Virus record (IMG/VR): IMGVR_UViG_3300024324_000009
Span: 107,041-171,040 of that record
Source of the DNA: a virus
DNA length: 64,000 nt
Strand: one strand, 5' to 3'
Positions 26,139 through 48,212 of the stretch are shown here, one piece after another; the first letter of the stretch is position 1; every line of letters begins with the position of its first letter. Under the pieces are notes generated by a model, which was given only the letters and a program-made list of their open reading frames with translations, did no database searches and was not told the origin of the DNA. The position numbers and the translations under genes were made by a program.

Positions 26139-27056
26139 TTATTCAAAGACAGGTGAAGGAATACCATTTCCTTGGTAATTAGGACTACGGTGTTTTATGT
26201 TAGGTAAGTCTTGGCAGTTTTTGCTAAGAAGTACTACCCAATCGTCAGAAGTTTTAGGCAAAGGTTTACTCATGCCCTTGAGATATGACAAAGTTAAAGC
26301 AGCAATACCAACTACATAAGGAGTAGCCATTGAAGTACCACTTAATCTAGCATAACCTTCGGGGACGCAAGAGATTATGTCTTCGCCCGGAGCAACAAAA
26401 TCTAAAGTTTCTCCTGTGCAACTAAAATTAGAGACATTCAATTTTCTACCTACTGAACCAACAGCCACCGTATACCTAGAACTAGCAGGATAATTAACTT
26501 TATTGTGATTACCACTATTACCAGCAGCACAGAATATTCCTATTCCATGATCATGAGCATATTTTAATGCTGATTCTAATCTAGGAGAATGATGAGGAGA
26601 ACCTAATGACATAGTAATTAAATCTGCATCTAATTGTACTGCTGTTCTAACTCCATCAGCAACATGATTATTATTACCCATACCATTATCACCTAATACT
26701 TTTATTGGTATAATTTTAACTTTAGGTGCAACTCCTACTACTCCGTATTTATTGGCAACAGCACCAATAGTGCCTGCAACATGACTTCCGTGACCATTAT
26801 GGTCAGACGGATACGTTCCGGGTTCTATGGCACAATATCCGGGTAAAGCTAGATTCTCATGCAGATCGGGGTGTTCAAGATCACATCCAGTGTCTATAAC
26901 TGCGACTCGTACACCACCTCCTTCAGTCACATTCCAACAAGATGGTATATCAAATTCATTTAATGCCCACGGAATCAACTGTGCAGAACCTAAATTAAGA
27001 CCATAGATATCTTCTCTAATATATGGTAATAGACCACAATCATTTCTTCTTCTCAC
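26139..27056 (-). CDS. subtilisin-like (S8) serine protease
   Basis: 305 aa with the complete triad: Asp55 (AVIDTGCD), His89 (NGHGSHVAG), Ser242 (SGTSMATP) and oxyanion Asn180 (AAGNSG). No signal peptide and only about 45 residues before the catalytic domain, so there is no inhibitor prodomain; either a cytoplasmic protease or one released by lysis. Overlaps the trypsin-like gene by 17 bp, so both are made together. Confidence 0.9.
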   Translation of the reverse strand: MRRRNDCGLLPYIREDIYGLNLGSAQLIPWALNEFDIPSCWNVTEGGGVRVAVIDTGCDLEHPDLHENLALPGYCAIEPGTYPSDHNGHGSHVAGTIGAVANKYGVVGVAPKVKIIPIKVLGDNGMGNNNHVADGVRTAVQLDADLITMSLGSPHHSPRLESALKYAHDHGIGIFCAAGNSGNHNKVNYPASSRYTVAVGSVGRKLNVSNFSCTGETLDFVAPGEDIISCVPEGYARLSGTSMATPYVVGIAALTLSYLKGMSKPLPKTSDDWVVLLSKNCQDLPNIKHRSPNYQGNGIPSPVFE

Positions 27057-27882
27057 TTTTCACTCTCTCTTTCTGTATTTTTTGTATTGTTGCAATTTGT
27101 TCAGGTGTTAATTTATCTATAATCTCTATTTGTTCTTTTACTGCTTTGATCCAAGGAATAAATTTACTAATTCTAGTAAAGCAAGCATCGTCACCATAGT
27201 CTGAATCTCCCTTGCCATCTGTAGCCATTATAAAAGAATTTATACCAGCCAGCTTTTGGTCTATAAACATCCCACCACCACTGTCTCCGGGTGCTATTAA
27301 AAATTCTAGGCTAGTATGTGCATCATCTGATTTAACAAGCAGACAGTCTTTATACATTTCAGCAACAAGGTTAGAACCTGCTCTCCTCTTGTTGTCAAAT
27401 GGTTTCCAGCCGGTTTTAAATGTACCGTGATGTCCATACCCTGCCATGCTGCAAACTTTACTCATCTCATCTGATTCAGTATATAGTTCGGGATAAAAAT
27501 CTAAGTTTATTGGCTTGCTTAATTTACCAACTGCTATATCAGCTATTCCTGTCTTATCGTATTTCCAATCTGAATGTATAGCAATTATGCTGACGGGGAC
27601 TACTTTATTATTGAAGATCACATTCTGTGACAAACTTCCTGCCACTACGTGGGCAGCGGTTATTATATATTTAGGAGAGATTAAAATACAAGAACCTCTA
27701 AAGGTACTATTAAGATCATTAGACATTATACCTTGAATAGGTAAAACACACTGGTGTTTCTTTCCATATTCTAAATATTTTGAATCAGGAACACTAGGGA
27801 GTCTTGTTCCTGCGATACTGTCAGTCGGGGTCGTTATCTGAACTGTTATAAACAGCAGCAGAATACCAATCAAAAGTCTCAT
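27040..27882 (-). CDS. secreted trypsin-like (S1) serine protease
   Basis: 280 aa. N-terminal signal peptide (LLIGILLLFITVQI), then His78 (TAAHVV), Asp115 (GIADIAVGKL) and Ser201 (APGDSGGGMF), a full chymotrypsin-fold triad. The C-terminal 35 residues are a Lys/Glu helix. Its start lies 62 bp inside the HNH gene in another frame. Exported protease genes are rare in phages; role may be in envelope breakdown, superinfection exclusion or host fitness. Confidence 0.9.
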   Translation of the reverse strand: MRLLIGILLLFITVQITTPTDSIAGTRLPSVPDSKYLEYGKKHQCVLPIQGIMSNDLNSTFRGSCILISPKYIITAAHVVAGSLSQNVIFNNKVVPVSIIAIHSDWKYDKTGIADIAVGKLSKPINLDFYPELYTESDEMSKVCSMAGYGHHGTFKTGWKPFDNKRRAGSNLVAEMYKDCLLVKSDDAHTSLEFLIAPGDSGGGMFIDQKLAGINSFIMATDGKGDSDYGDDACFTRISKFIPWIKAVKEQIEIIDKLTPEQIATIQKIQKERVKSEKKK

Positions 27883-29683: not shown

Positions 29684-30688
29684 TTAATCCAGTAAACTCG
29701 CTGCAATTAAGCATCCTTTAGAAACAGAATGTAATGGGTCGTCTGCATGTTTTACAACCTCAATACCAAGAGGAAACCCTGACTCTTTCAATTTTTCCTC
29801 TAGTTTTTCTACATAACCTTCAGCCCTTGATGTGCCACCAGCAACAACAATCTTGATGTCATCTTTAAACTTAGGTAAAGATTTGTGACCATCTAACGCT
29901 GCGGATAATTGTTTAGCAGTATAATCAATAAGTCTTTCATAGTAAGAAGCAACAGCACTTAAAACCGGATTGTCATTAGCTTCACCGACTTTAAAACCAC
30001 CGCTTTCTTTTTCTACCTGTACAACACTATCAGCTTCACCTGTGGCAACTGCACTCATGCGGTCAACCCAATCACCTGACTTTGTGGTACTGAAGACTAC
30101 TGTTGGTTCGCCGTTGAGCATAACACAAACATTGGTCATACCTGCACCACAACTAATGCCAATGCCAGTATAGTCTGTGTCTTCTAACTCAGCGTAACAC
30201 AACGCTTCTGCTTCGTTCACTGACCTTGCATCATATCCTACTTCTGCAAGGATAGCTTGTACTGTATCTTCGTGGAAGCCTACGTCAAAGTCTTCATCTT
30301 CTTGATCCACTGGTTGTGCAGGAACACAGTATACCAGTTTCTCACCTTCAGTTTCAGCCTGACCGACCACCTCTTTTAAAATGTAAGCCAATACACGTTT
30401 AGCTTCTTTTTCTTTTACGGAGATTACACCTCTGTGCATAGGACGACGAGCAGTTTCATTTCTTTCGACTGCCTTCTCAATAGCATCAGAACCGAGAAGA
30501 ATAAAAGAGCCATCTTCATCTTTGACAAACACTTTTCCTGCCAAACCTTTTTCAATCATTTTATTCGCTATAGGGGTGGATGGTTTAATAATATAAAACG
30601 CATCTCTAAAATCTTTGAATTTAATATTGTCGCCCTCATACTGTGACATTACAATAAAACTCGTGCCTACGTCAAGTCCGATTCCCAT
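29684..30688 (-). CDS. actin-like ATPase (ParM/MreB superfamily)
   Basis: 334 aa. Actin/Hsp70 fold motifs: phosphate-1 GIGLDVGTSF (residues 2-11), phosphate-2 GIGISCGAGMTNV and adenosine motif IVVAGGTSRAEG. Similar lengths occur in plasmid ParM/StbA and phage actins. It may form filaments that position or segregate phage DNA. No ParR-like gene was recognised; the adjacent membrane protein at 30691 could be the partner. Confidence 0.75.
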   Translation of the reverse strand: MGIGLDVGTSFIVMSQYEGDNIKFKDFRDAFYIIKPSTPIANKMIEKGLAGKVFVKDEDGSFILLGSDAIEKAVERNETARRPMHRGVISVKEKEAKRVLAYILKEVVGQAETEGEKLVYCVPAQPVDQEDEDFDVGFHEDTVQAILAEVGYDARSVNEAEALCYAELEDTDYTGIGISCGAGMTNVCVMLNGEPTVVFSTTKSGDWVDRMSAVATGEADSVVQVEKESGGFKVGEANDNPVLSAVASYYERLIDYTAKQLSAALDGHKSLPKFKDDIKIVVAGGTSRAEGYVEKLEEKLKESGFPLGIEVVKHADDPLHSVSKGCLIAASLLD

Positions 30689-31429: not shown

Positions 31430-32320
31430 TTACCTGATTTTGCCTAACACCCGTCCTTTAGGCGTTCTAACAACAAAACCCATTCTAATCATATACGGTT
31501 CAATGCTATTTGATATAGTATCCTCAGAGATGCCGCACATCGTAGCAATACTTTTGATACCCATAGGTTGACCTATCTTCTTCTGTAACACATCAATGTA
31601 CTTACGATCATTAACATCAAACCCATTCTTATCAATACCTTGCTTATTGAATATTGCCTCAACATCGTCTTTACGCTGATGGAACTGCACGTAACTCTTA
31701 TACCATTGAAGTCTAGCATTTAGAACTCTAGGAGTACCCTTGCTACGTTTAGCAATATCCAGCAACTCATCATCAGTTAGTTCGTCAAGTCCCATCTTCT
31801 TTACATTCAACCTAGCTAGATTAGCTAACTCACTAGGCGTATAGAACTGTAGATGTTCTTTGATTACAAATCTGTCATAAAATGGTTGGGTTAGACTGCC
31901 ACCATTAGTTGTTGCACCGATCATGCAAAACGGAGGGATGTCAATGCCTTCGTCTTCATTCTCCTGCATGAGATCAAGCCTGAAGTCTTCCATCACTGGA
32001 TACAGGAACTCTTCTACAAGAGTAGGCAGACGATGAATCTCATCAATGAATACGATACTACCACGCTCTACGCTCATGAGGTAAGGTATGATACTCTTAA
32101 TATTTCTAATCGTAGCAGCATTTAGAGTATGGATTTTTACACCTAACTCATTAGCGATAGCATTAGACATAGTAGTCTTGCCTAAGCCCGGTGGGCCATC
32201 AAGTAATGTATGAGGCATAACGTCTCCGTCCTTGCATCCTGCAATCATAATACTCAGACGTTCTTTAACATCTGTTTGTCCAATTACATCTTCAAAAGTT
32301 GTTGGTCGTAGATTATTCAT
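31430..32320 (-). CDS. RuvB-like Holliday-junction helicase
   Basis: 296 aa. Walker A GPPGLGKTT (42-50), Walker B IVFIDEIHR (89-97), sensor GATTNGG and the winged-helix end MGFVVRTPKGR align along the full length of bacterial RuvB (about 335 aa). Forms a hexameric ATP-driven branch-migration motor. No RuvC or complete RuvA is in the window; the preceding gene carries a RuvA-domain-III-like end and overlaps by 8 bp. Confidence 0.9.
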   Translation of the reverse strand: MNNLRPTTFEDVIGQTDVKERLSIMIAGCKDGDVMPHTLLDGPPGLGKTTMSNAIANELGVKIHTLNAATIRNIKSIIPYLMSVERGSIVFIDEIHRLPTLVEEFLYPVMEDFRLDLMQENEDEGIDIPPFCMIGATTNGGSLTQPFYDRFVIKEHLQFYTPSELANLARLNVKKMGLDELTDDELLDIAKRSKGTPRVLNARLQWYKSYVQFHQRKDDVEAIFNKQGIDKNGFDVNDRKYIDVLQKKIGQPMGIKSIATMCGISEDTISNSIEPYMIRMGFVVRTPKGRVLGKIR

Positions 32321-32915
32321 TTAGTTTTGCTCCTTCTTTTCTGAGAACCAGTTCAATCAGTTTCTTCCTGTCAATCGTTAGGTCAGCACAGTTCTCTCTC
32401 ATACAATCAGAAGCTAGCTTGCTCGCTGTTCCTGCATTGTAACCGTACTTCTTTAAAACCTTCACTGCCTCAGTTATAGCATACATCTGCTCATCTGTCA
32501 AGACATTAATTGCAAAAGTGTTTTCTACTGGAGCAAACTTAGATTCTTGCATATATCCATGATCAGGGATTATCTTATTGTTATCAAAATTAAAATCTTT
32601 TAATACAGGATCATTGGACTCAGGGTCAGGAGTAGGAGTAGGAGTAGACTCAGGAGTAGACTCAGGAGTATTAAATACTGGTTGAGTTTGTTTTGGTACA
32701 GGAGGAACCTTCTTATCATCATAGTAGACTTTCATTTTAGTAACGAACTGAGGTCGCAATATAGAGTTGCAATCAGGACAAACAATCATAAAGCCTTCTG
32801 TCATGGCTTCTGACAAGGTTATATAATTATCACACTCACATTCAGGACATTCGTATACTAAGTGTCCTTCAAACTTTTTAGGTTTCTGTTCGTTAAATGT
32901 TTTCCTGTTCTTCAT
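32313..32915 (-). CDS. zinc-ribbon protein with RuvA domain III-like C-terminus
   Basis: 200 aa from the ATG at 32915 (AAAGGA upstream). A zinc ribbon (YECPECECDNYI ... IVCPDCNS) is followed by a Pro/Glu/Ser/Thr linker encoded by GACTCAGGAGTA-type repeats. The last 60 residues (EAVKVLKKYGYN, TASKLAS, KKLIELVLRK) resemble the mobile domain III with which RuvA binds RuvB. The overlap with ruvB supports a loader role (inference). Confidence 0.6.
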   Translation of the reverse strand: MKNRKTFNEQKPKKFEGHLVYECPECECDNYITLSEAMTEGFMIVCPDCNSILRPQFVTKMKVYYDDKKVPPVPKQTQPVFNTPESTPESTPTPTPDPESNDPVLKDFNFDNNKIIPDHGYMQESKFAPVENTFAINVLTDEQMYAITEAVKVLKKYGYNAGTASKLASDCMRENCADLTIDRKKLIELVLRKEGAKLNE

Positions 32916-33321
32916 CTTGTCCATCCTTTTCTGGTTTCCAAAAAATAAAGTCTTGCTTTTCATCGTCGAAAGCACACTCAAGCTGTCCCTTGGCGACTAG
33001 GCCATTCATCAAATTACTGACTAACCTGCCAGTGATATCTTGTACCAACTTTTCGTATTCATGTACTCCAATTATAAACCGTTTATCCTTTTTGTCAAAT
33101 CGAATGTAGTCTTTTGATATAGTAGTTACTTCTTTTAAAGTTAGGTATTCATTTATTTCTTGTTTTTCCTCTTCGTCAAGATCATCATACTTATATTTAA
33201 GTAGTTCACTAGAGTCTTTATCGTGCATGGCACCAAATATTCCATATACCCAAACTCTAGTTGCTTGTAAAAAGTCTCCAAGTTTATCAATAACAAATTG
33301 TTCTTCATGATCATCCGACAT
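32893..33321 (-). CDS. hypothetical acidic protein
   Basis: 142 aa, helical, acidic, no recognised domain. Overlaps the zinc-ribbon gene by 23 bp and is part of the RuvB transcript. Confidence 0.55.
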   Translation of the reverse strand: MSDDHEEQFVIDKLGDFLQATRVWVYGIFGAMHDKDSSELLKYKYDDLDEEEKQEINEYLTLKEVTTISKDYIRFDKKDKRFIIGVHEYEKLVQDITGRLVSNLMNGLVAKGQLECAFDDEKQDFIFWKPEKDGQDEEQENI

Positions 33322-33801: not shown

Positions 33802-34680
33802 TTAGAAGCAGTCGTCATCATCATAATCTTCGTCGTCTTCGTCGTCTTCGTCGTACTCATCAAACGAATCCCAGTAAGCAGGAGAGTACCATCTTGGATC
33901 GCCATTTGCGTTAATATCCTCTTCATCATGGTATTCGTCCTCCTCAAATTCAGCCTTATACAAAGGTTTCGGCAGTTCGCCTTGGTATTCACCAACAACC
34001 TCGTATTTGCAGGTTCTTAGTTTCTCGCAGTTGCAATCACTAGGAACACTTACAACGTCTGCTGGGTTTATCTTAACGATAACGATTCGATCATTGTTAT
34101 CTACGCTGCCATAGTTTGCAACATAGTTCAATGCTCCAGCGTGTAGTCCTTGCGAACAGCCGACACTTCTATTGTCGTCTACTTTTGCTCTCGGCATCTC
34201 ACAAACACTACCTACTTGATTATCAAAGACTCCACGCCATTTATCTTTGAAGTCTTTGTTTACTGCCTTGTATGCCAGAAAACAACCGTCTTCTGTAATT
34301 GGCAGATTCTCATGCTCCAAGAAATCGTAGAGTTCTCTTTGACTCTGCATACTTGGATTTTCCATTGCATTATTTAAAAAGTTTACAAGAGGCTCAAACG
34401 GCAGACCTTTACTCATAAACTCTAGGATTCGCTTGGATACACTTCCATGCACTTCTTCACCTGCATGTAGCACTCTGCCATCCTTAATTACTACCTGACC
34501 AGAAGAGTAGGCTTCAACCGATGCTTCTAGATCAACCAGTATCACCAACTCATCTTCCGTTGCAGTTGGCAGAACTTCTAAAATGTTCTCATAGTTAACG
34601 TGATCTGGAAGAACCTGATAGGCTTTGCCCTTCAGCATTACTGTCAAATTTCCATCAACAAACATAAAAGGTACACTCAT
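33802..34680 (-). CDS. rIIB: rIIB-like protein
   Basis: 292 aa from the ATG at 34680 (AGGAG upstream; ATG at 34686 also possible). FLAYKAVNKDFKDKW, MPRAKVDDNR, CSQGLHAGALNYV and VVSVPSDCNCEKLR are the hallmark segments of T4 rIIB-family proteins. The C-terminus is a run of Asp/Glu encoded by repeated TCGTCGTCT triplets (33829-33853). Acts with rIIA, in T4 for membrane/exclusion phenotypes; lies 20 bp after rIIA. Confidence 0.9.
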   Translation of the reverse strand: MSVPFMFVDGNLTVMLKGKAYQVLPDHVNYENILEVLPTATEDELVILVDLEASVEAYSSGQVVIKDGRVLHAGEEVHGSVSKRILEFMSKGLPFEPLVNFLNNAMENPSMQSQRELYDFLEHENLPITEDGCFLAYKAVNKDFKDKWRGVFDNQVGSVCEMPRAKVDDNRSVGCSQGLHAGALNYVANYGSVDNNDRIVIVKINPADVVSVPSDCNCEKLRTCKYEVVGEYQGELPKPLYKAEFEEDEYHDEEDINANGDPRWYSPAYWDSFDEYDEDDEDDEDYDDDDCF

Positions 34681-34700
34681 AATCATTTACTCCTGTGAAA

Positions 34701-37343
34701 TTAAAGTCCAAAACTATTCTTAATATCGTCCCGATCAACATTCTTAACACTTGAGAGCATTGAACCATATCGGTTGTCATCAGCCATTCGCATGATTGTG
34801 CCGTCTGGTTGTGCATCTTTCATCTCCAAATCTTGATCTCCTATACCCATAGTATACTTGAGCATTGGTGATCTGTCAAGCCCCTGTTTGAATTTCTTAC
34901 GAATATCATGGATACTCGGCAAGGCCTTCAAAATTGACTCACAATCGACTTGTTTTAAAAGATCGTCCATTGACACTATATCTCCAATACCAGCCCTTGT
35001 CAGTTCATTTCCGGCTTCTATAGCCTTGTTTAACCTAGACTTGATAGACGACAAACGCGATGGGTCAACTGGTGGCAGTCCACATTCGACCAGTTTATTC
35101 TCAATAATATCCAATACTTCTTGGTTAGTAAAAGGTTTAGCCAATGTAGACTGATTAAAATTGGATATAGCATATAGAGTGATATATGATTCTAGTGCTT
35201 CTACCAAGTCTTTATCATTAATTTCTTTAGCAAAATCCTTACCATAGATGTTTAACAGATGGGCAGACATTAGTTGTTCTGTCTTGTTGCATTTGCGGTA
35301 TCCATTGGTTCTGCTACCGTCCTCCATAGCTAGTTCAAGTATCGCAGCCTCCCTTATTTTACACCATACCGCAATATCTTTGATTTGCTTGGCATACACT
35401 TTAGTTGCTTTGCCCTTGAACCACTCACTGAACTTGACCAGTTTGTAACCATCTTTTTGCAGCTTTTTAACAGCATTTGTCTTGATAGCAAAGACTGTAT
35501 TTTTAGACAGTAGTTCCTTACCGAACTTCACATCCTCGTTGCCTGCTAGTCTACAGATACGATAGATACTAATCTGATCCATACTTTGGTATCGACTAAT
35601 TGGCACGTAAATAATCTTGCCATCATAAGTGCTAAGTTTATCTATCATGTCTTGGCTGAGTTCACGCAGGTAGCCTGACTCGTTCATGTCTTTCTTGCCA
35701 GTAAGTCCCTCAAGCCCTTCGTGACCACCAGTTTTAGCAACCACAAACATTTCGTTAACAGAAATGCTACCTTTAGCACCACCACTGCTGCTGCCGTTGC
35801 GGATCAAGTCTGCATAGTCACTGACTTTTAGTACTTCGCCACCAAACCATTTAATCAGTTCATCGAAACCGTTTAATGACATTTCATGAGGTCTGACTGT
35901 ATTAATCATGAGGTATGCCTGAGCATTATGAATCTCACAATATTCTAGTGCAATCTTCTTAGCACGTTCTACAGACTTAACATCACAGACGAATAGTTTA
36001 AGACTATTACGCTTGGTTTTGTCGTAGTACGAATCTGCCTTGCCTTCAAGTGTCTCACCATGCAGAGTGTCTGTCTGATAAACTTTTCTCTTGGAACGAT
36101 ATGTAGTCGTTTTCCAATTAAAAACATATAGCTGACTCTGTTTGTTCATCTCAACCTTCAGGTTTTTACCAGATGAGAGTTCGTGAGTTATGCCATCTGC
36201 ATCTGTCCACGCTGCACCAGCAGTGTATCCACCTGCAATATCATTCAGGTTATAGTAAGTTCTGTATGCTTCTACCAGACAGTTGGCTTCCTCCACCTTC
36301 TTAGAAACATTTTCTTTGAGTTGCATGTAGATAGCCTGAGTTTTCTCACGCAGTTTCATGACTGTAGCCTTGGTATACTGCAAACCTTCACGGCTAACGT
36401 CCATCTCAAGATCGCCAATGTTAAATTCAATCTCAAGATACAAACCTTGATTAAGAATGTCTGACACTAGGTTCTTCCAGTTAGCCAAGTCTACCTTGCC
36501 GAACACTTTGTTCCATGCTCGAATAGCATCACTTTCTTGGTCTTTTTCTTTACCGATAACTTGCTCTGCAACTACTGGGTATGCAATATTTCCCATGATA
36601 GCTATGATACCAGCACCGCAGTTGTTATACTGAGAGGGAAAGGTATCGTTTCGATGGTCAAGTCTTCCAACCTTCCAGCCTTCACCTGAGATAACTGTCT
36701 CATTGTTTCTGTATGTGCCGTCATTCAGGTTTTCAGAGACACCACCAACAATCGTAGGCTGATTCTTGAAATAATGAAAGACTCTCTTAGCCTTATCTGA
36801 AAACTCTTCAAAGTCTGACTGACTCACAGCAAAACTAATTTCAATACCATTAGGCTCATTCGTATCCGTAACACCGAACAGGCTCAAGCTAGGTACACCT
36901 GTTTCATCCATAGCAGCGATGTAGGTATAGCACTTACCATTAAAGAAAGAGGCAGTGGTAAAACTCTTGGTATAAGCAAATGGACTCTTAGAACCCAGAC
37001 CAAGACAACCAGTAAAATCATTACTATCATTCTTGTTGCTAGCACCATACGTTGTGTATAGTTCTTCCATGTCCTTCTGACTTAGACCTGTACCATAATC
37101 TCTGATAGTAAAGTTAGGATCGCCAGCATTAGGCAAAGTCACCTTAAATGGTCGCTGGTTTTTTGCTGAGACATGTGCATCGTTTGCATTCGTAGATAGT
37201 TCTCGAATGATTGCCATAATCTTATCAGAGTACAAAGAGTCTGACAAAATCTTGAACATCTTGCTCGTCTGAGCGATAGTGAATCCGTTAGTGCCTTGTA
37301 CTCCTGCACTGTGGTTCTCAACTGTTACATCTGCTAATTTCAT
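34701..37343 (-). CDS. rIIA: rIIA-like GHKL ATPase
   Basis: 880 aa. N-terminal GHKL ATP-binding fold: N-box IRELSTNANDAH (Glu48, Asn52/54, Asp55), G1 DYGTGLS (82-88) and G2 LGLGSKSPF (114-122), as in T4 rIIA. Forms a two-gene operon with rIIB under the promoter at 37387-37414 and has an extended ribosome site ACTTTGGAGGA. In T4 the pair counters lambda Rex exclusion; the function here may be similar anti-defence. Confidence 0.9.
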   Translation of the reverse strand: MKLADVTVENHSAGVQGTNGFTIAQTSKMFKILSDSLYSDKIMAIIRELSTNANDAHVSAKNQRPFKVTLPNAGDPNFTIRDYGTGLSQKDMEELYTTYGASNKNDSNDFTGCLGLGSKSPFAYTKSFTTASFFNGKCYTYIAAMDETGVPSLSLFGVTDTNEPNGIEISFAVSQSDFEEFSDKAKRVFHYFKNQPTIVGGVSENLNDGTYRNNETVISGEGWKVGRLDHRNDTFPSQYNNCGAGIIAIMGNIAYPVVAEQVIGKEKDQESDAIRAWNKVFGKVDLANWKNLVSDILNQGLYLEIEFNIGDLEMDVSREGLQYTKATVMKLREKTQAIYMQLKENVSKKVEEANCLVEAYRTYYNLNDIAGGYTAGAAWTDADGITHELSSGKNLKVEMNKQSQLYVFNWKTTTYRSKRKVYQTDTLHGETLEGKADSYYDKTKRNSLKLFVCDVKSVERAKKIALEYCEIHNAQAYLMINTVRPHEMSLNGFDELIKWFGGEVLKVSDYADLIRNGSSSGGAKGSISVNEMFVVAKTGGHEGLEGLTGKKDMNESGYLRELSQDMIDKLSTYDGKIIYVPISRYQSMDQISIYRICRLAGNEDVKFGKELLSKNTVFAIKTNAVKKLQKDGYKLVKFSEWFKGKATKVYAKQIKDIAVWCKIREAAILELAMEDGSRTNGYRKCNKTEQLMSAHLLNIYGKDFAKEINDKDLVEALESYITLYAISNFNQSTLAKPFTNQEVLDIIENKLVECGLPPVDPSRLSSIKSRLNKAIEAGNELTRAGIGDIVSMDDLLKQVDCESILKALPSIHDIRKKFKQGLDRSPMLKYTMGIGDQDLEMKDAQPDGTIMRMADDNRYGSMLSSVKNVDRDDIKNSFGL

Positions 37344-38353: not shown

Positions 38354-38840
38354 GATATACCTCCCAATCTCGATAAAAACTTTCGTTACCAGTGTCGATA
38401 CAACAAAGCATCGCTACTTCATTCTCCAACACTCCTCTATAAATATAACCGATATTTTGAAAATGGCAATCCCAAAAATCCAAATCTGTGTGATATTTTA
38501 TTTTATGACACAGTTTCTCAATCCAGACGTTATCAATATCTTCGGTTAATAGTTCTGCTTTTTCTGTGAGATAGCCTAATTCAGTTGTTGTTACTTTAGG
38601 ATCATAATACCTAAGTAATTCTGGCTCATAAAAATAAGGTATTTTGCACAGCCCTCCGTAAACTCTTGGGGCTAGATTGTGTTTAGATAATTCAACCTGA
38701 TTGTTATATGCTTCCTTGGCTTTTAACTCATGGTTAAAACTCTTAAACAATAAAGAAGGATGATCCTTCACAGGCAAAACATCACAGTTCGCCCCTGAAA
38801 AACCATCCTCTAATTCAATTAAATAATCGTTATTAATCAA
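38337..38840 (-). CDS. small protein-kinase-fold protein
   Basis: 167 aa. Kinase landmarks appear in order: Lys33 in LLFKSF, hinge ELGYLTEKAE, catalytic-loop D124-x4-N129 in FWDCHFQNIGY, and metal Asp149 in CCIDTGN. It is far shorter than a normal kinase (about 250 aa), as in reduced phage and viral kinase-like proteins. Might phosphorylate a protein or small molecule, or be a pseudo-kinase. Overlaps the DUF1559 start by 8 bp. Confidence 0.6.
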   Translation of the reverse strand: MINNDYLIELEDGFSGANCDVLPVKDHPSLLFKSFNHELKAKEAYNNQVELSKHNLAPRVYGGLCKIPYFYEPELLRYYDPKVTTTELGYLTEKAELLTEDIDNVWIEKLCHKIKYHTDLDFWDCHFQNIGYIYRGVLENEVAMLCCIDTGNESFYRDWEVYHAVYK

Positions 38841-39819
38841 TACTTCCTACTTCCCCACCTGCTCTAGTAATTACGCCAGCAAAAACTCTCAGGTCTACGT
38901 TGTTATTAATAGTCCTAGTTGATCCATCAGCATAACATGCGTTCATAACTCCGGGGTGCATACTGAATGCCTCACCATCGTTAATTACGTTAAATGGTAC
39001 GTTGCCGGGACAGTTTTTACACTTGTCACCATTAGCATCAACTCCATGTAGTTTAAAAGGCCCAAGGCTGTCAGCCCAACCAAGACACTGGTTTGTGTCA
39101 CCTGTTGGAGTGCCACCTCTGTTTACACTAGCCTTATAAACATCAGGCCTACTTGAGCATTCAGCAATCATAAGAGTATTAGAAAAACCATCTCTAATTT
39201 GCTGCTCTTTAGTTACCTGATCTTTTACCAAGCACCCTTCTGTAATCGGGCCTTTTGCTGCATAAGGATCGCTACCAGCAGGAAAGATTTTATCCTTAAC
39301 ACCAGTAAACGTCTCATAATCTGTATGACCAAGACTGCTTGGACTTAGACTTGGTGCAGCACTATCTTCATCTCTGGTTGGCCCATCAATATCTGCATAC
39401 CCATCACCAGCAGGCAAAGCAGATGGACACAGAAATGTATTTACAGTTGTATTTACAGCCTGTGTATTCTCCCACCAATTTTTATTAAAATCATAAAGGT
39501 CTGCAACATTGCGTTGCTCTAAATTAGCAAGAGCAAATGCTCTCCAACTATGTTCTGTTCGTGATGGATTGCCAAGTGCAGATGGAGTCTCACTTAAATC
39601 TTTCGCCTCGATAGTCCATGCAGCAGCAGGAAAATACCTTCTTTGATCCATAGTTGTGTGCATAGCCAAACCTTGTTGTTTTAAATTGTTAGTGCAAGAA
39701 ACTCGTCTTGCTGCTTCTCTAGCCTGTTGTACAGCGGGAAGCAAAAGCCCCACTAATACTCCAATAATTGCGATTACCACTAATAATTCGATGAGTGTAA
39801 AGCCTTTACGTTGGTGCAT
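38833..39819 (-). CDS. DUF1559 prepilin-like protein (planctomycete type)
   Basis: 328 aa. N-terminal class III signal KGFTLIELLVVIAIIGVL with the type IV prepilin Phe and Glu5, then LLPAVQQAREAARR, and the C-terminal H-x9-DG motif (HPGVMNACYADG). This architecture is multicopy and almost restricted to Planctomycetes and relatives. It would be processed by the host prepilin peptidase and assembled or exported. Has its own promoter and leader hairpin. Confidence 0.9.
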   Translation of the reverse strand: MHQRKGFTLIELLVVIAIIGVLVGLLLPAVQQAREAARRVSCTNNLKQQGLAMHTTMDQRRYFPAAAWTIEAKDLSETPSALGNPSRTEHSWRAFALANLEQRNVADLYDFNKNWWENTQAVNTTVNTFLCPSALPAGDGYADIDGPTRDEDSAAPSLSPSSLGHTDYETFTGVKDKIFPAGSDPYAAKGPITEGCLVKDQVTKEQQIRDGFSNTLMIAECSSRPDVYKASVNRGGTPTGDTNQCLGWADSLGPFKLHGVDANGDKCKNCPGNVPFNVINDGEAFSMHPGVMNACYADGSTRTINNNVDLRVFAGVITRAGGEVGSID

Positions 39820-42743: not shown

Positions 42744-43120
42744 TTCTTCTTACCTTTCAAGTCCGCTATGTTCTGTGCTATATCTACTAGCCTATCCCAA
42801 TTTTCATCTATGTATTTTTCTGGCCCACCCATATCAGCCTGTGCTTGTGCTATTTCTTCAGTGGGAACCATTTCAATAGCATCCCAAGGACAAACCTTAA
42901 CATCATATAACTTTCCTTTATTACCCGGAACATGGATACATTGTTCGCAACCTATACAAGTAGATAGATCAATCTCACACCATTGAGTTACTCCCTGTTT
43001 TATCTGGAATATACAATCAACAGGACACACTTCTAAACAAGCCTCGCAGCCCGTACAGTTGTCTGCCTGAATGATTGCTAATTCTTTGGGTATCTTTTTT
43101 CTTACTTTTTTATCTGCCAT
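42740..43120 (-). CDS. 2x[4Fe-4S] ferredoxin
   Basis: 126 aa. First cluster Cys22/25/28/32 (CTGCEACLEVCP), second Cys55/58/61 with Cys77 (CIGCEQC ... VCPWD), with a loop between Cys61 and Cys77 longer than in standard ferredoxins. The N-terminus (KKIPKELAII) and helical tail match planctomycete dicluster ferredoxins. An electron carrier, possibly for the heme-containing protein two genes upstream (inference). TAATG overlap with DUF1501. Confidence 0.85.
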   Translation of the reverse strand: MADKKVRKKIPKELAIIQADNCTGCEACLEVCPVDCIFQIKQGVTQWCEIDLSTCIGCEQCIHVPGNKGKLYDVKVCPWDAIEMVPTEEIAQAQADMGGPEKYIDENWDRLVDIAQNIADLKGKKK

Positions 43121-44421
43121 TAAGCTATAATATCGTGTTGGATATTTCCGAATACGTCTGTTAGTCTAAAGTCTCTACCACTATACCTATAAGTAAGTTT
43201 AGTATGATCTATTCCCATCAGATATAATATAGTAGCATGTAAATCATGTATGTCAAGCCCGTCTACTGCTTTGTGTCCAAAATCATCAGTAGTGCCGTAT
43301 CTCATGCCACCCTTTACGCCACCGCCTGCCATCCAGACAGTGAACCCACCATTATTATGGTCTCTTCCTGTAGCACCAGCCTTGATGCCCGGAGTACGAC
43401 CAAACTCACTACCGAATAAAACTATAGTGTCCTCAAACATGCCAGAATCTTTTAAATCTTGTAGCAACGCACCAATAGGCTGATCAATAGCAGTTCCCTT
43501 ACGCTGAATGTTGCCAGCGATGTCTTGGTGATTGTCCCAACCACCGAATCCGATCTCGACAAATCTCACGCCTGCTTCACTAAATTTCTTCGCTAACAAA
43601 CACTGCTTGCCAAACTTTTCTGTTGTCTTATTATTTATACCATATCTTTCTAGAGTTTCTTGTGACTCTTTTGATATGTCAATAGTTTGTGGAACACTTG
43701 TCTGCATTTTATAAGCCAGTTCATAACTTTCGATCAGGCCTTCCAATCTGCTATTCTCGCCTTTTAATTGCAGATGGTTTAGATCGCTAAGAAAATCTAA
43801 GTTCTCTCTTTGTTCAGCCATTCCTATTGGACTTTTTAAATTAGGTATTGCGTTTGCCATATTACCTGCATTAACTGCTGTGCCTTGATATATTGCAGGA
43901 AGAAATGCACTTCCGTAATTCTCTGGCCCAATACCAGCATCAATCGTTAGAAAACCGGGAAGTTCTTTGTTCTCAGTTCCTAAACCATACAGTAGCCAAC
44001 TACCCATACTGGGACGAGTAAACTGGAAATTGCCTGTGTGTAATAATTGTTTTGCTTGATTATGATTACCAGACTTTGATTTCATTCCATTAATTAAACA
44101 TAGGTCATCGGCATGTTTTCTCAAGTGAGGAAAATTTTCACTAATTTCAATACCACTTTCTCCTGCCGGTGTGAGTGGAACAGCAGGCTTGACAATCTTT
44201 CTGCCTTTGCTTACTGGATCGTCGATACCATCTTTCTCAACCATCAAAGGCTTGTAGTCAAAAGTATCGGTGTGACTCATCCCTCCACCCATATAGCAAA
44301 ATATAATCTTCTTTTTAATTGCTGTAGTTTCTTCTGCAAGTAGGCCTTTCAATGCCAACATGCCAAACCCAGCACTTGCTGTTTGTAATAAGTTTCGTCG
44401 ATTAAAATAGTTATTGTACAT
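43120..44421 (-). CDS. DUF1501 twin-arginine exported protein (alkaline phosphatase/sulfatase superfamily)
   Basis: 433 aa. Tat-type signal NRRNLLQTASAGFGMLAL, then GGMSHTDTFDYKP, GFGGWDNHQDI, LFGSEFGRTP and GATGRDHNNGG, the metal-site motifs of DUF1501. This family is multicopy in Planctomycetes and paired with DUF1549/DUF1553 proteins, as here (11 bp overlap). Presumed periplasmic hydrolase; substrate unknown. Confidence 0.9.
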   Translation of the reverse strand: MYNNYFNRRNLLQTASAGFGMLALKGLLAEETTAIKKKIIFCYMGGGMSHTDTFDYKPLMVEKDGIDDPVSKGRKIVKPAVPLTPAGESGIEISENFPHLRKHADDLCLINGMKSKSGNHNQAKQLLHTGNFQFTRPSMGSWLLYGLGTENKELPGFLTIDAGIGPENYGSAFLPAIYQGTAVNAGNMANAIPNLKSPIGMAEQRENLDFLSDLNHLQLKGENSRLEGLIESYELAYKMQTSVPQTIDISKESQETLERYGINNKTTEKFGKQCLLAKKFSEAGVRFVEIGFGGWDNHQDIAGNIQRKGTAIDQPIGALLQDLKDSGMFEDTIVLFGSEFGRTPGIKAGATGRDHNNGGFTVWMAGGGVKGGMRYGTTDDFGHKAVDGLDIHDLHATILYLMGIDHTKLTYRYSGRDFRLTDVFGNIQHDIIA

Positions 44422-46888
44422 TTCTAAATTCTCCTGTGCATATTAATATTTGGATTAGGTTTGCAAGATTCTTTTCCATAATCTCATTCTTTTTCTTGAT
44501 GTCTACTTTGCTTGTGTAGTCAACAAACTCTTCACCTTCTGGGGTCTTACCAACTCCTAAACCAATCTGTTCTGCTTGCTCTGTATCTTTTAGATAAAAA
44601 TCCATCGCTGCTTCAAATTCAACTTTAGATGGTGGCCTTCCAAGAATCTTTTGCCATATACTATGAAGATTATTATGGTGCAATAGCCTTGGCATGGTTC
44701 TACCCATCCTCATATTATTTTGCCATATCTCTTTTGCCATTTCTTTACACATGGCGATGATCTTTGGATTGTTCATTAAGAATAATGCTTGAGTACTAAC
44801 TGTTGTTACATTTCTTTCTGCTGCCAGCAGGCTATTGTCTGGACGATCAAACATATCAAGTATCTCAATCTTATTATCCCTTAACGATGGAATATAAATT
44901 GATCTAGCTTTAGTTTCCCCAATATATTTTCTTAATTCTTTTCCCGGTGCTTTAATTCCTGTTTGTATCTCACTTATGTTCTTATGCGACCCCTCTAGTT
45001 TGCCTGAGACAAATAACAGAGTGTCCCTAATTTGTTCAGCCTCTAATCTTTTCTCATTCATTCTCCAAACGTAAACATTGTCTGGGTCAATCTCAAAATT
45101 ATCTTTATTGAAGTTACTACTGCGTTTATATGCGTCACTCATAACGATAGTTTTAATTAGTCGCTTGTTTGACAATTTACCAGTAACAAACTTACTTGAA
45201 AGATAGTTCATTAGTTTAAGATTGCTTGGCTCACCACCAAGTATACCAAAATTATCAAAGCTGTCAAGTATACCTTTTCCAAAAAGATGTCGCCATACCC
45301 TGTTCACATGAACTCTGTAAGTCAGAGGATTAGTTTTATGTGCTATCCATTCTGCCAGTTCATAACGTCCACTGGTATTATCAAAGTTGAGAAATGGTCT
45401 GTCACTAAATATTTCAGGCAATCTTCTTGGCACTTCATCACCAAGATTATTAACTTCTCCCCTGATTGCAATTTTAATCTCAGTCATTTTAGTCTTGTCT
45501 TTTACAGACATTATAGGCTCAAGAAATTCTAGATAAGCTAAATCTTTTTCATTAAGTTTAGTCTTGGCCTCATCTAATCTCTTTTGTCTTTTATCTGTCT
45601 CTCTTTTAAGTTGTTCTGGAGTAACTCTTTTGCTCCAAGTTTTAATAGATTCTAATTGTGCTTCTAAGTTCTTGGTCTCACATAAAGCTAACCATCTCTC
45701 AATCTGTCTTTGCTTGTACAGGCTTTCAGTTTCTTTTGTGACTAAAAAATCGTAATCACCAAGATAGCCTGTATTATTATTACCTCTATATAATCCATCA
45801 AGGTTTTGTGTGTTACTAAATAAACCAGCAACACCATAGTAGTCTTCTTGGCTAAATGGATCAAACTTGTGATCATGGCATCTTGCACAACTCAGAGTCA
45901 TGCCAAGAAAACCTCTTGTAACTGCGTCTATTTGGTCGTCGTTGCGGTCTGCTTCAAACTGTCTAGTCTGTGCCTGTATATTTTTTGTACCTATTGTTAA
46001 AAAGCCTGTGGCAATTCTATTAATATTATATTCTTCATAGCTTTTATGTGGTAATAGATCGCCTGCAATTTGCTCTTTTATAAAATCATCGAATGGTTTG
46101 TCATTGTTAAAACTATCAATAACATAATCTCGATACCTCCAAGCATACGGACTAACCAAATTTCTGTCTGAACCAGATGATTCTCCATATCTGGCTACAT
46201 CTAACCAGTGTCTTCCCCATTTTTCTCCAAAGCCTTCGTCATCAAGTAAAGTATCGACTAAATTTTCATAACGATCTTCACTCTTATTCTGCATAAACTG
46301 CCTCATCTGTATTTCACTTGGGGGCAAACCAATAAGATCAAAATATAGTCTACGCATTATAGTATAGTCTTCTGCTAATTCACTAGGCTTTAAACCATGC
46401 TTATCTAAATCTAATTGCAGTATTGCATCTATCTCTGTACCATCGTCATACTTTGCTACAGGAGGACGCTGAACTTTTTTGAATGACCAGAACTGTCTAG
46501 CCTGCCTAAGTTCTATTGCTCTATTCTCATGCTTGTATCGTGGGTCAGGCATTCCCATTTTAATCCATTGTCGGAATAATTCAACAGTCTTTTCATCTAG
46601 TGGTTGATCAGGAGGCATGTCACCAGACTCTACATAGTCAAAAAGAGAACTCTCTTCTGGCTTACCCGGAACCACACTTGGCCCAGAATCACCACCGTTT
46701 AATATACCTTGCCTAGTATCTATGGCAAATCCACCTTTAGTTTTTTCTGAGGCAGATGAATGACATGAATAACATTGGGTTTGTAACACTGGTAAGATAT
46801 TATCATTAAAAAATTTGACACCACTTTTATCTTGACTATAAGCTATACTAGCAGATAGTGCAACAACAATAGCGATAACATATTTCAT
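44411..46888 (-). CDS. PSCyt1/DUF1549/DUF1553 cytochrome c protein
   Basis: 825 aa from the ATG at 46888 (TAATATG after ligase), which places the signal peptide at the N-terminus. Heme site Cys39-x2-Cys42-His43 (CYSCH), then a DUF1549 region with EKWGRHWLDVARYGES and a DUF1553 region with NPLTYRVHVNRVWRHLFG. Such proteins are typical of Planctomycetes and Verrucomicrobia; role thought to be periplasmic redox linked to polymer degradation. Complete in length, no frame damage. Confidence 0.9.
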   Translation of the reverse strand: MKYVIAIVVALSASIAYSQDKSGVKFFNDNILPVLQTQCYSCHSSASEKTKGGFAIDTRQGILNGGDSGPSVVPGKPEESSLFDYVESGDMPPDQPLDEKTVELFRQWIKMGMPDPRYKHENRAIELRQARQFWSFKKVQRPPVAKYDDGTEIDAILQLDLDKHGLKPSELAEDYTIMRRLYFDLIGLPPSEIQMRQFMQNKSEDRYENLVDTLLDDEGFGEKWGRHWLDVARYGESSGSDRNLVSPYAWRYRDYVIDSFNNDKPFDDFIKEQIAGDLLPHKSYEEYNINRIATGFLTIGTKNIQAQTRQFEADRNDDQIDAVTRGFLGMTLSCARCHDHKFDPFSQEDYYGVAGLFSNTQNLDGLYRGNNNTGYLGDYDFLVTKETESLYKQRQIERWLALCETKNLEAQLESIKTWSKRVTPEQLKRETDKRQKRLDEAKTKLNEKDLAYLEFLEPIMSVKDKTKMTEIKIAIRGEVNNLGDEVPRRLPEIFSDRPFLNFDNTSGRYELAEWIAHKTNPLTYRVHVNRVWRHLFGKGILDSFDNFGILGGEPSNLKLMNYLSSKFVTGKLSNKRLIKTIVMSDAYKRSSNFNKDNFEIDPDNVYVWRMNEKRLEAEQIRDTLLFVSGKLEGSHKNISEIQTGIKAPGKELRKYIGETKARSIYIPSLRDNKIEILDMFDRPDNSLLAAERNVTTVSTQALFLMNNPKIIAMCKEMAKEIWQNNMRMGRTMPRLLHHNNLHSIWQKILGRPPSKVEFEAAMDFYLKDTEQAEQIGLGVGKTPEGEEFVDYTSKVDIKKKNEIMEKNLANLIQILICTGEFRNVQ

Positions 46889-46889
46889 A

Positions 46890-48212
46890 TTAAACCTCTC
46901 TTGCTTTGCCATGTAGATGTTTGAAGGTTGGAAATCTTAGGCTTATCCCACCTTCCTGATTTGTAGTCTCCTCAAAATATTGTACCAAAATAACCATGCC
47001 CTTAATTAGGTCAGGATTATTGTAAAACTCCTGTCTTTGATCAATAGTGAATCCACTTCCAACTCGTACATGATGTCCTCTATGGGTAATATACACACAA
47101 CTGAGCATTTCTTCCTCACATTCTGCACCATCCTTGACATATCGAAATGGCCCCATTTCTACGTCATCTACGGTATATTCAGCATCCTGAAAGGTTTTAA
47201 CTTTTAACAGGTCTTTTGACCTTTTACCTTTATATGTCGTGTTCTTACGAAGCATTACGCCTTCCCAGCCGTATTTGTCAGCCTGTTTAGACCAGAACTG
47301 TAAACCTTCATCATCTTTGACAATACTCATTCTTAGGACACTGAGACAAGGACATTCGTTCTTCTCCATAGCCAAGGCTAATTCAGTCATTCTCATTTCC
47401 AGATTACTCTTGCTTGAGCCTTTTTGGAAGTCATTAAAGTCAATCATGTCAAAGATTTTAAATGACGGGTTTTTAATTGTATGGTCTTTCTTGCGAATCT
47501 GTTTCATTACACCTTGAAAATCCTCATTTCCATCATCATCAATCAGACACAACTCACCGTCTAAAACTTTGTTAGTAAGTTGTAGACCCTTAATGCCATC
47601 ATAAACAACACCAAGAGTAGTGATTTCTTTTCCTGTACGGGTATAGAAGTTAATGTCACCAAAAGCGTCAATAATAGCAACACATCTAACACCATCCAAT
47701 TTACGAGAAACATACCAACCCTCTCCCCATTCGTGTTTGTCAGGATTAAACTTATCCGCTAAAGCAACATTAAATTGTCTGATAAGACCGGGAACAGCCT
47801 TGTTGATGAGTTTAGCACCTGTCCTAGTTTTTAAATCTTTATCAAGAATTAGATACACCAGTTCCTCATCATGTGGAAACTTTTTGATATATGTATTGAT
47901 AATTCTAACAGCGTCATGTCCAGTATATCTACCAGTGCGTAAATCACTAAACAGTGATGCTAAACCATATCCGGGTTCACAATCACCAAAGGAGAGGTCA
48001 GGACGTTTCTTCACCTGCTTACTGGTAATATTGTACATACTGTACGGACAGTATGCCATGCTGAGTACGGTCTTTGCAAAGAGTTGATTGCCGTTCTGTT
48101 CCTCAACGCCGCCTGTGTATTCCAGCAAGATGTCCAATTTGTCATTGGTACTGCTGTTGTGTCGTAGTTCCTCGATCATGTCCATAACGTGTAGTGTAGC
48201 TTGTTTAGTCAT
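46890..48212 (-). CDS. ATP-dependent DNA ligase
   Basis: 440 aa. Motif I KLDGVR with nucleophile Lys171, FYTRTGKEI (motif III), VLDGELCLID (motif IV) and EGVMLRKN ... LLKVKTF (motifs IIIa-V), then an OB-fold end. Seals nicks in replicating phage DNA. Promoter at 48255-48282; the planctomycete-type cassette follows on the same message. Confidence 0.9.
   Translation of the reverse strand: MTKQATLHVMDMIEELRHNSSTNDKLDILLEYTGGVEEQNGNQLFAKTVLSMAYCPYSMYNITSKQVKKRPDLSFGDCEPGYGLASLFSDLRTGRYTGHDAVRIINTYIKKFPHDEELVYLILDKDLKTRTGAKLINKAVPGLIRQFNVALADKFNPDKHEWGEGWYVSRKLDGVRCVAIIDAFGDINFYTRTGKEITTLGVVYDGIKGLQLTNKVLDGELCLIDDDGNEDFQGVMKQIRKKDHTIKNPSFKIFDMIDFNDFQKGSSKSNLEMRMTELALAMEKNECPCLSVLRMSIVKDDEGLQFWSKQADKYGWEGVMLRKNTTYKGKRSKDLLKVKTFQDAEYTVDDVEMGPFRYVKDGAECEEEMLSCVYITHRGHHVRVGSGFTIDQRQEFYNNPDLIKGMVILVQYFEETTNQEGGISLRFPTFKHLHGKAREV

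Follow-up and report, generated by a model that had tools for sequence, protein, structure and literature searches.

In bacterial RuvAB, the third domain of RuvA attaches to RuvB at helix alpha3 and at the presensor-1 hairpin (Wald et al. 2022, PMC9477746). Carried on a flexible tether, this domain acts as a nucleotide-exchange factor of RuvB and drives ADP exchange; the RuvA core holds the junction while domain III serves the motor (PMC9477746; PMC10272136). In E. coli RuvA, the substitutions L167A and L170A in this domain abolish RuvB activity in vivo (PMC2628435). For phages, a survey of 224 jumbo phages found no coupling between their RuvC-like resolvases and a RuvB-like ATPase (PMC7824862), so phages would be expected to rely on the RuvB of their host.

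In this work we analysed a window of 64,000 nucleotides, which comprises bases 107041-171040 of a 171,040-base IMG/VR virus record, a phage record of 171 kb. The region at positions 31430-32915 of this window consists of two minus-strand genes that overlap each other, a ruvB and a small upstream gene whose product we call the adaptor.

The phage RuvB and its locus

The gene at positions 31430-32320 (minus strand, 296 amino acids, P0001) encodes RuvB. A preliminary description of this DNA had followed RuvB along the full length of the product, and our searches agree. Both Pfam RuvB_N (3e-45) and RuvB_C (1.3e-18) score over their cut-offs, the protein reaches 292.9 bits against the NCBIfam RuvB equivalog NF000868 (cut-off 282), and residues 4-291 align with solved bacterial RuvB, with both ends trimmed. 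The AAA+ core, the RuvB lid (AAA_lid_4, 1.9e-5, under the Pfam cut-off) and the RuvB_C winged helix are thus found in a protein with an equivalog-level score. The alignments also locate the functional arginines. The arginine finger R150 is invariant in the viral alignment, and R285, K288 and R290 align with R314, R317 and R319 of P. aeruginosa RuvB, the DNA-contacting arginines of the CTD hairpin (PMC10071043), with arginine replaced by lysine at K288.

The presensor-1 hairpin (positions 31931-31981, minus strand) has 17 amino acids, compared with 21 in all but one of the 78 bacterial RuvBs where it is readable. Most of the phage RuvB clade shares this hairpin, which is four residues shorter than the bacterial one, and the other members have 22-24 amino acids. 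E. coli I150 is kept as I126, and E. coli I148 is replaced by E124 in the alignment. Given the changed length and the replacement of Ile148, the interface for RuvA domain III on the phage RuvB must be altered. The remodelling is common to the whole phage clade. Hairpin lengths are alike with and without an adaptor, and we therefore rejected hairpin length as an explanation for the presence of the adaptor.

The adaptor gene (32313-32915, minus strand, 200 amino acids, P0002) starts with ATG and lies upstream of ruvB. The overlap claimed in the preliminary description is 8 nt long, ATGAATAA (32313-32320, minus strand), and joins the adaptor stop to the ruvB start. The two genes overlap or abut in 38 of 56 distinct adaptor family members, and short gaps separate them in the remainder. 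Upstream of the adaptor follows a conserved neighbour of 142 amino acids with no assigned function (32893-33321, minus strand; alignment of 8 homologues), for which Pfam gave no match below E=0.05. This neighbour is kept with or without the adaptor and abuts ruvB directly where the adaptor is missing. In the relatives that we checked, its homologues of 130-157 amino acids precede the adaptor or ruvB and share a conserved C-terminal motif, AFDxEKxDFxFW. The encoded protein could be an additional RuvB partner.

Neither RuvA_N nor RuvA_C had a match at E<=10 in the 171-kb record, which is possibly incomplete; in the controls, RuvA_N was positive in 10 and RuvA_C in 12 of 14 genomes. RuvA_N was likewise not detected in another 14 large clade records, seven adaptor-less ones included, and RuvC (PF02075) had no match at E<=10 in the 171-kb record or in the 14 clade records. 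Within the adaptor we found no RuvA domain I (OB fold, RuvA_N) and no HhH family match that would represent domain II, and the N-terminal half is modelled as a zinc ribbon. The earlier claim that the RuvA DNA-binding domains are absent therefore stands for the adaptor and for the record at this threshold. As two of the three RuvA domains are missing, the adaptor is not a RuvA. The phage RuvB may still use the RuvA of the host, and a host RuvC could act in place of a phage-encoded one.

Several other genes of the record deserve mention. Upstream of the ruvB cluster lie rIIB-like and rIIA-like genes (33802-37343, minus strand), the former of which is syntenic in eight relatives (L004-L011) wherever the contig extends to this position. 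An actin-family protein (29684-30688, minus strand) matches Pfam Volactin, a haloarchaeal actin, at E 1.4e-67, and its gene stays near ruvB in the relatives L006 and L007. A subtilase gene (E 4e-48) adjoins a gene for a serine-protease-like secreted protein (26139-27882, minus strand), of which a relative is found near ruvB in L009. DNA polymerase III alpha is apparently divided: one ORF has PHP+NTPase, a second has finger+HhH, and a gene for a DnaQ-like exonuclease separates the two (record positions 84913-89394, L022). Two DUF1559/SBP_bac_10 proteins are encoded at 38833-39819 of the window (minus strand) and at record positions 90723-91796. The first matched an N-methylation (pilin-like) signal and the second starts similarly. 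They were not found in 14 large clade relatives and thus appear to be cargo specific to the lineage of this phage. Finally, positions 43120-46912 (minus strand) contain a DUF1501 gene (E 1e-128) together with one for PSCyt1-DUF1549-DUF1553 (E 2e-76 and 4e-69). We take these two genes to be a planctomycete hallmark pair, and their presence on a phage suggests a planctomycete host and an unusual cargo.

The adaptor and its relation to RuvA domain III

The adaptor is composed of two folded ends and a linker. The zinc ribbon (residues 11-66; 32718-32885, minus strand) has the pattern C-x2-C ... C-x2-C with C23, C26, C46 and C49. All four cysteines are invariant in 56/56 distinct family members and sit as two knuckles on modelled beta-ribbon strands, where zinc is predicted to bind. 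The N-terminal part is basic, with a median net charge of +7 in these members. A low-complexity linker rich in Pro, Thr and Glu follows (residues 67-138; 32502-32717, minus strand), recognised by its pLDDT, dN/dS and indels, and its length ranges from 10 to 68 amino acids across the family. The C-terminal domain (residues 141-199; 32319-32495, minus strand) has three helices, at 141-156, 161-175 and 183-199. An AlphaFold model built from 52 sequences has an overall pLDDT of 78.5, with 93-98 for residues 11-60, 82 for residues 61-70, mostly 45-62 in the linker and about 81-97 in the C-terminal helices; it supersedes an earlier model from two sequences with a pLDDT of 48. Between the phage of the window and its relative L003, dN/dS is 0.165 for residues 1-70 and 0.146 for domain III, against 0.64 for the linker; RuvB has 0.057. 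Both end domains evolve under purifying selection and the linker drifts, a contrast that indicates functional ends and an unconstrained linker.

Taken as a single sequence, the C-terminus of P0002 has no significant PDB or Pfam match. It scores 14 bits against a RuvA domain III profile, the best value among the 182 ORFs of the phage and 1000 shuffles, but an 86%-identical relative scores only 0.9 bits. We therefore regard the resemblance of the single sequence as a hint and let the family tests decide. When a profile of 52 adaptors was compared with 177,635 distinct PDB sequences, 1ixs_A came first with E=2.2e-5, followed by 1ixr_A. The former is domain III of T. thermophilus RuvA, solved in complex with RuvB. 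Lower matches of the profile (E 0.01-0.09) were more RuvA, two designed proteins and one match to the zinc-ribbon region. A 51-column HMM of the adaptor C-terminus ranked RuvAs as the top 38 (best E 1.9e-5) of 2,975 bacterial ORFs, that is the six-frame ORFs surrounding 80 bacterial ruvB genes. The reverse search with a RuvA domain III HMM placed adaptors as the top 30 of 4,066 phage ORFs (best 2.6e-5), and hhalign relates the two families with a probability of 91% (P=1.4e-7). RuvA_C is the most frequent Pfam family among the 52 members (12 matches, best 0.0016) and TIGR00084 ruvA the most frequent NCBIfam family (20 matches, best 1.2e-4).

The structural comparison points weakly in the same direction. 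A Foldseek search of the PDB with the P0002 model lists RuvA chains at ranks 30, 34, 38-40, 42, 43, 48 and 49, with a best rmsd of 0.9 A over 50 columns and E-values that are not significant, and the other top matches are mostly zinc ribbons. Where E. coli RuvA has L167, the adaptors have Leu in 53/56 and Met in 3/56 members; in place of L170 they have Tyr, Leu or Phe, and the Gly that follows is invariant in the 56 members. The corresponding residues of the adaptor are L154 and Y157. Judged from these family-level profiles, the C-terminal domain of the adaptor is a homologue of domain III of RuvA, and RuvB binding can be predicted for it. The preliminary description had seen a C-terminus like domain III on a flexible linker after a zinc ribbon. 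The family profiles and the AlphaFold model bear this out, and the profile check that it proposed succeeds at the level of the family, with 1ixs_A as the match. Its further proposal, a stripped-down loader in place of RuvA, is supported in part: binding to this RuvB, loading and replacement of RuvA are predicted, and the adaptor-less relatives and the remodelled hairpin call for caution.

The distribution of the adaptor was investigated with two scans. A scan of IMG/VR with a RuvB alignment gave 80 loci at 57-65% identity. Together with a first scan this makes 91 loci. The RuvB clade of this phage accounts for 88 of them, and in 62 of these 88 a 124-200-aa gene of adaptor build lies directly upstream of ruvB. 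An earlier impression from L004-L011, at about 60% identity, that the adaptor is not conserved was a sampling effect according to this wider scan. With the adaptor family as query, IMG/VR yielded 47 loci, and RuvB follows the adaptor directly in all 46 that extend far enough downstream, which ties the adaptor genetically to RuvB. P0002 as a single query found only near-identical relatives in IMG/VR and nothing in bacterial genomes, and we rejected a match in a Salmonella jumbo phage (E=0.3) as chance. Many full-length RuvB matches in the phage collection stem from unannotated or metagenomic records. One entry labelled Acinetobacter phage (L108, CAKLQF020000007.1) is, in the stretch that we examined, bacterial chromosome with purL, dgt, ruvAB and tolQ. 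Because its RuvB lies in bacterial DNA, we left the phage collection out of the RuvB counts, and the mislabelling calls for caution when RuvB is counted in such collections.

On the RuvB tree, an adjacent adaptor is absent for 24 of 78 distinct clade sequences and its presence requires at least 13 changes. A search elsewhere in 15 adaptor-less records, including ones of 113-229 kb, did not find it. As RuvB occurs without the adaptor, the adaptor is not obligatory, and together with the number of changes this means that the phage RuvB can function without it or that another protein can stand in. In the adaptor-less sister phages the motor has another way to work, possibly with host RuvA or with none. 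Across 56 pairs of RuvB and domain III, mutual information was not enriched at the hairpin, and this covariation result is uninformative.

Proposed mechanism and alternative explanations

Our preferred reading, to which we give a probability of roughly 0.68, is that the phage supplies its own RuvB as a dsDNA-translocating motor and that RuvA gives way to a small dedicated adaptor, which is co-translated with RuvB. By analogy with RuvA, domain III of the adaptor would tether and activate the phage RuvB. The basic zinc ribbon would, via the flexible linker, most likely anchor the motor to nucleic acid, such as intermediates of recombination or of the replication fork, or to a phage protein of replication or recombination, and so take over the targeting role of the junction-binding core of RuvA. 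The adaptor would thereby retain the motor-control half of RuvA, with the basic zinc ribbon substituting for the junction-recognition half. We infer the binding of the adaptor to RuvB, the activation, the target of the ribbon and the reaction performed (branch migration). A bolder version, which we put forward tentatively, is that these phages have a RuvAB branch without the junction-recognition core, in which the adaptor activates the RuvB hexamer, in the way that domain III of RuvA does through nucleotide exchange, and points it to a target other than junctions, for example replication forks. If this is true, RuvB would serve phages as a general dsDNA translocase whose targeting can be exchanged.

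The alternative that survives best is that the adaptor is a recruiter and not a junction loader: domain III would hold RuvB and the zinc ribbon would dock on a phage protein, for which the RecA-like protein, SSB, the primase/helicase and the polymerase are candidates. With such docking, the motor would act at phage replication forks and not at Holliday junctions. Zinc ribbons are common protein-docking modules, and the weak matches of this ribbon are to LysW, ribosomal proteins and IBR. A replication set is encoded by the phage itself, with DnaE in two ORFs, DnaB, primase, a RecA-like protein and an SSB-like ORF, and the records tested have neither a detected junction-binding domain nor RuvC. 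All of this would suit a recruiter. The basic charge of the ribbon, however, equally suits the binding of nucleic acid, and we see recruitment to a protein as a real possibility with less than an even chance.

The second alternative is an ordinary acquisition of a host ruvB beside an unrelated small gene, with the phage RuvB plugging into host RuvA. The bacterial RuvBs nearest to P0001 by identity are indeed mostly planctomycete (40-43%), and RuvA and RuvB are known to complement each other across species (PMC9477746). But a long, fully supported branch separates the phage RuvB clade from the bacterial set in the RuvB tree, the RuvA-binding hairpin is remodelled, and the relation of the adaptor to RuvA domain III means that there is no unrelated gene. 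We consider this explanation unlikely.

It is a little less likely again that the adaptor acts on host RuvAB, as a decoy or a modulator whose domain III competes with host RuvA for host RuvB, with the phage RuvB using host RuvA or none. Domain III by itself could compete at the RuvB interface, and one third of the clade has a phage RuvB without the adaptor. However, RuvB lies directly downstream of the adaptor in 46/46 loci of the adaptor scan with enough downstream sequence, often with translational overlap, and there would be no reason for a decoy to have such a tie to the phage motor gene. Least probable is a generic UBA-like bundle of three helices at the C-terminus whose likeness to RuvA domain III is convergent, because the matchless single sequence, the size of about 50 residues and the insignificant Foldseek E-values are outweighed by the PDB-wide profile match to RuvA with no UBA family among its 17 matches, by the clean runs of true matches in both reciprocal rankings, by the prevalence of RuvA in two libraries and by the adjoining RuvB.

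Comparison with known systems

Among other AAA+ proteins, T4-type clamp loaders (gp44/62) and related loaders come into question, as PHROGs files the nearest match of P0001 under phage clamp loaders. We rejected this identity: the PHROGs E-value is far weaker than the RuvB match, the RuvB equivalog score is far higher, and P0001 has the winged-helix RuvB_C. A DnaN-type clamp was not found in the phage record or in 7 relatives. For the adaptor, PHROGs holds no convincing family. The openly accessible journal literature on phage RuvB, RuvA and zinc ribbons that we searched does not describe the RuvB-adaptor pair; the adaptor would be a stripped-down RuvA substitute that is apparently undescribed so far.

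Like the jumbo phages with recombination systems, the phages studied here are large and carry their own recombination genes; unlike in that survey, RuvB is found here without RuvC (PMC7824862). Compared with the RuvB of RuvABC, P0001 keeps the AAA+ core, lid and winged helix and the catalytic and DNA-contact residues. It differs in its shorter ends, in the hairpin of 17 or 22-24 instead of 21 amino acids in its clade, and in belonging to a record in which neither RuvA nor RuvC was detected. A broad uncultured phage clade thus carries RuvB, and most of its members add what appears to be a natural separation-of-function RuvA, with a predicted motor-binding domain but without the junction-binding core. 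The pair makes it testable how much of the effect of RuvA on RuvB is due to domain III and how much to the junction-bound tetramer, and a dsDNA translocase made of just two genes would be compact enough to serve both as a model and as a tool.

With RuvA of E. coli and T. thermophilus the differences lie at the N-terminus: no OB-fold domain I or HhH of domain II was detected in the adaptor, which has an unrelated zinc ribbon instead, and a tetrameric junction-binding core is not apparent. The likeness lies in the flexibly linked C-terminal domain of three helices, in the conserved Leu (E. coli L167) with the Gly-aromatic turn, and in the location of the gene immediately before ruvB, an order shared with many bacterial ruvAB operons. 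Most likely, the adaptor works like the third domain of RuvA with a new address label.
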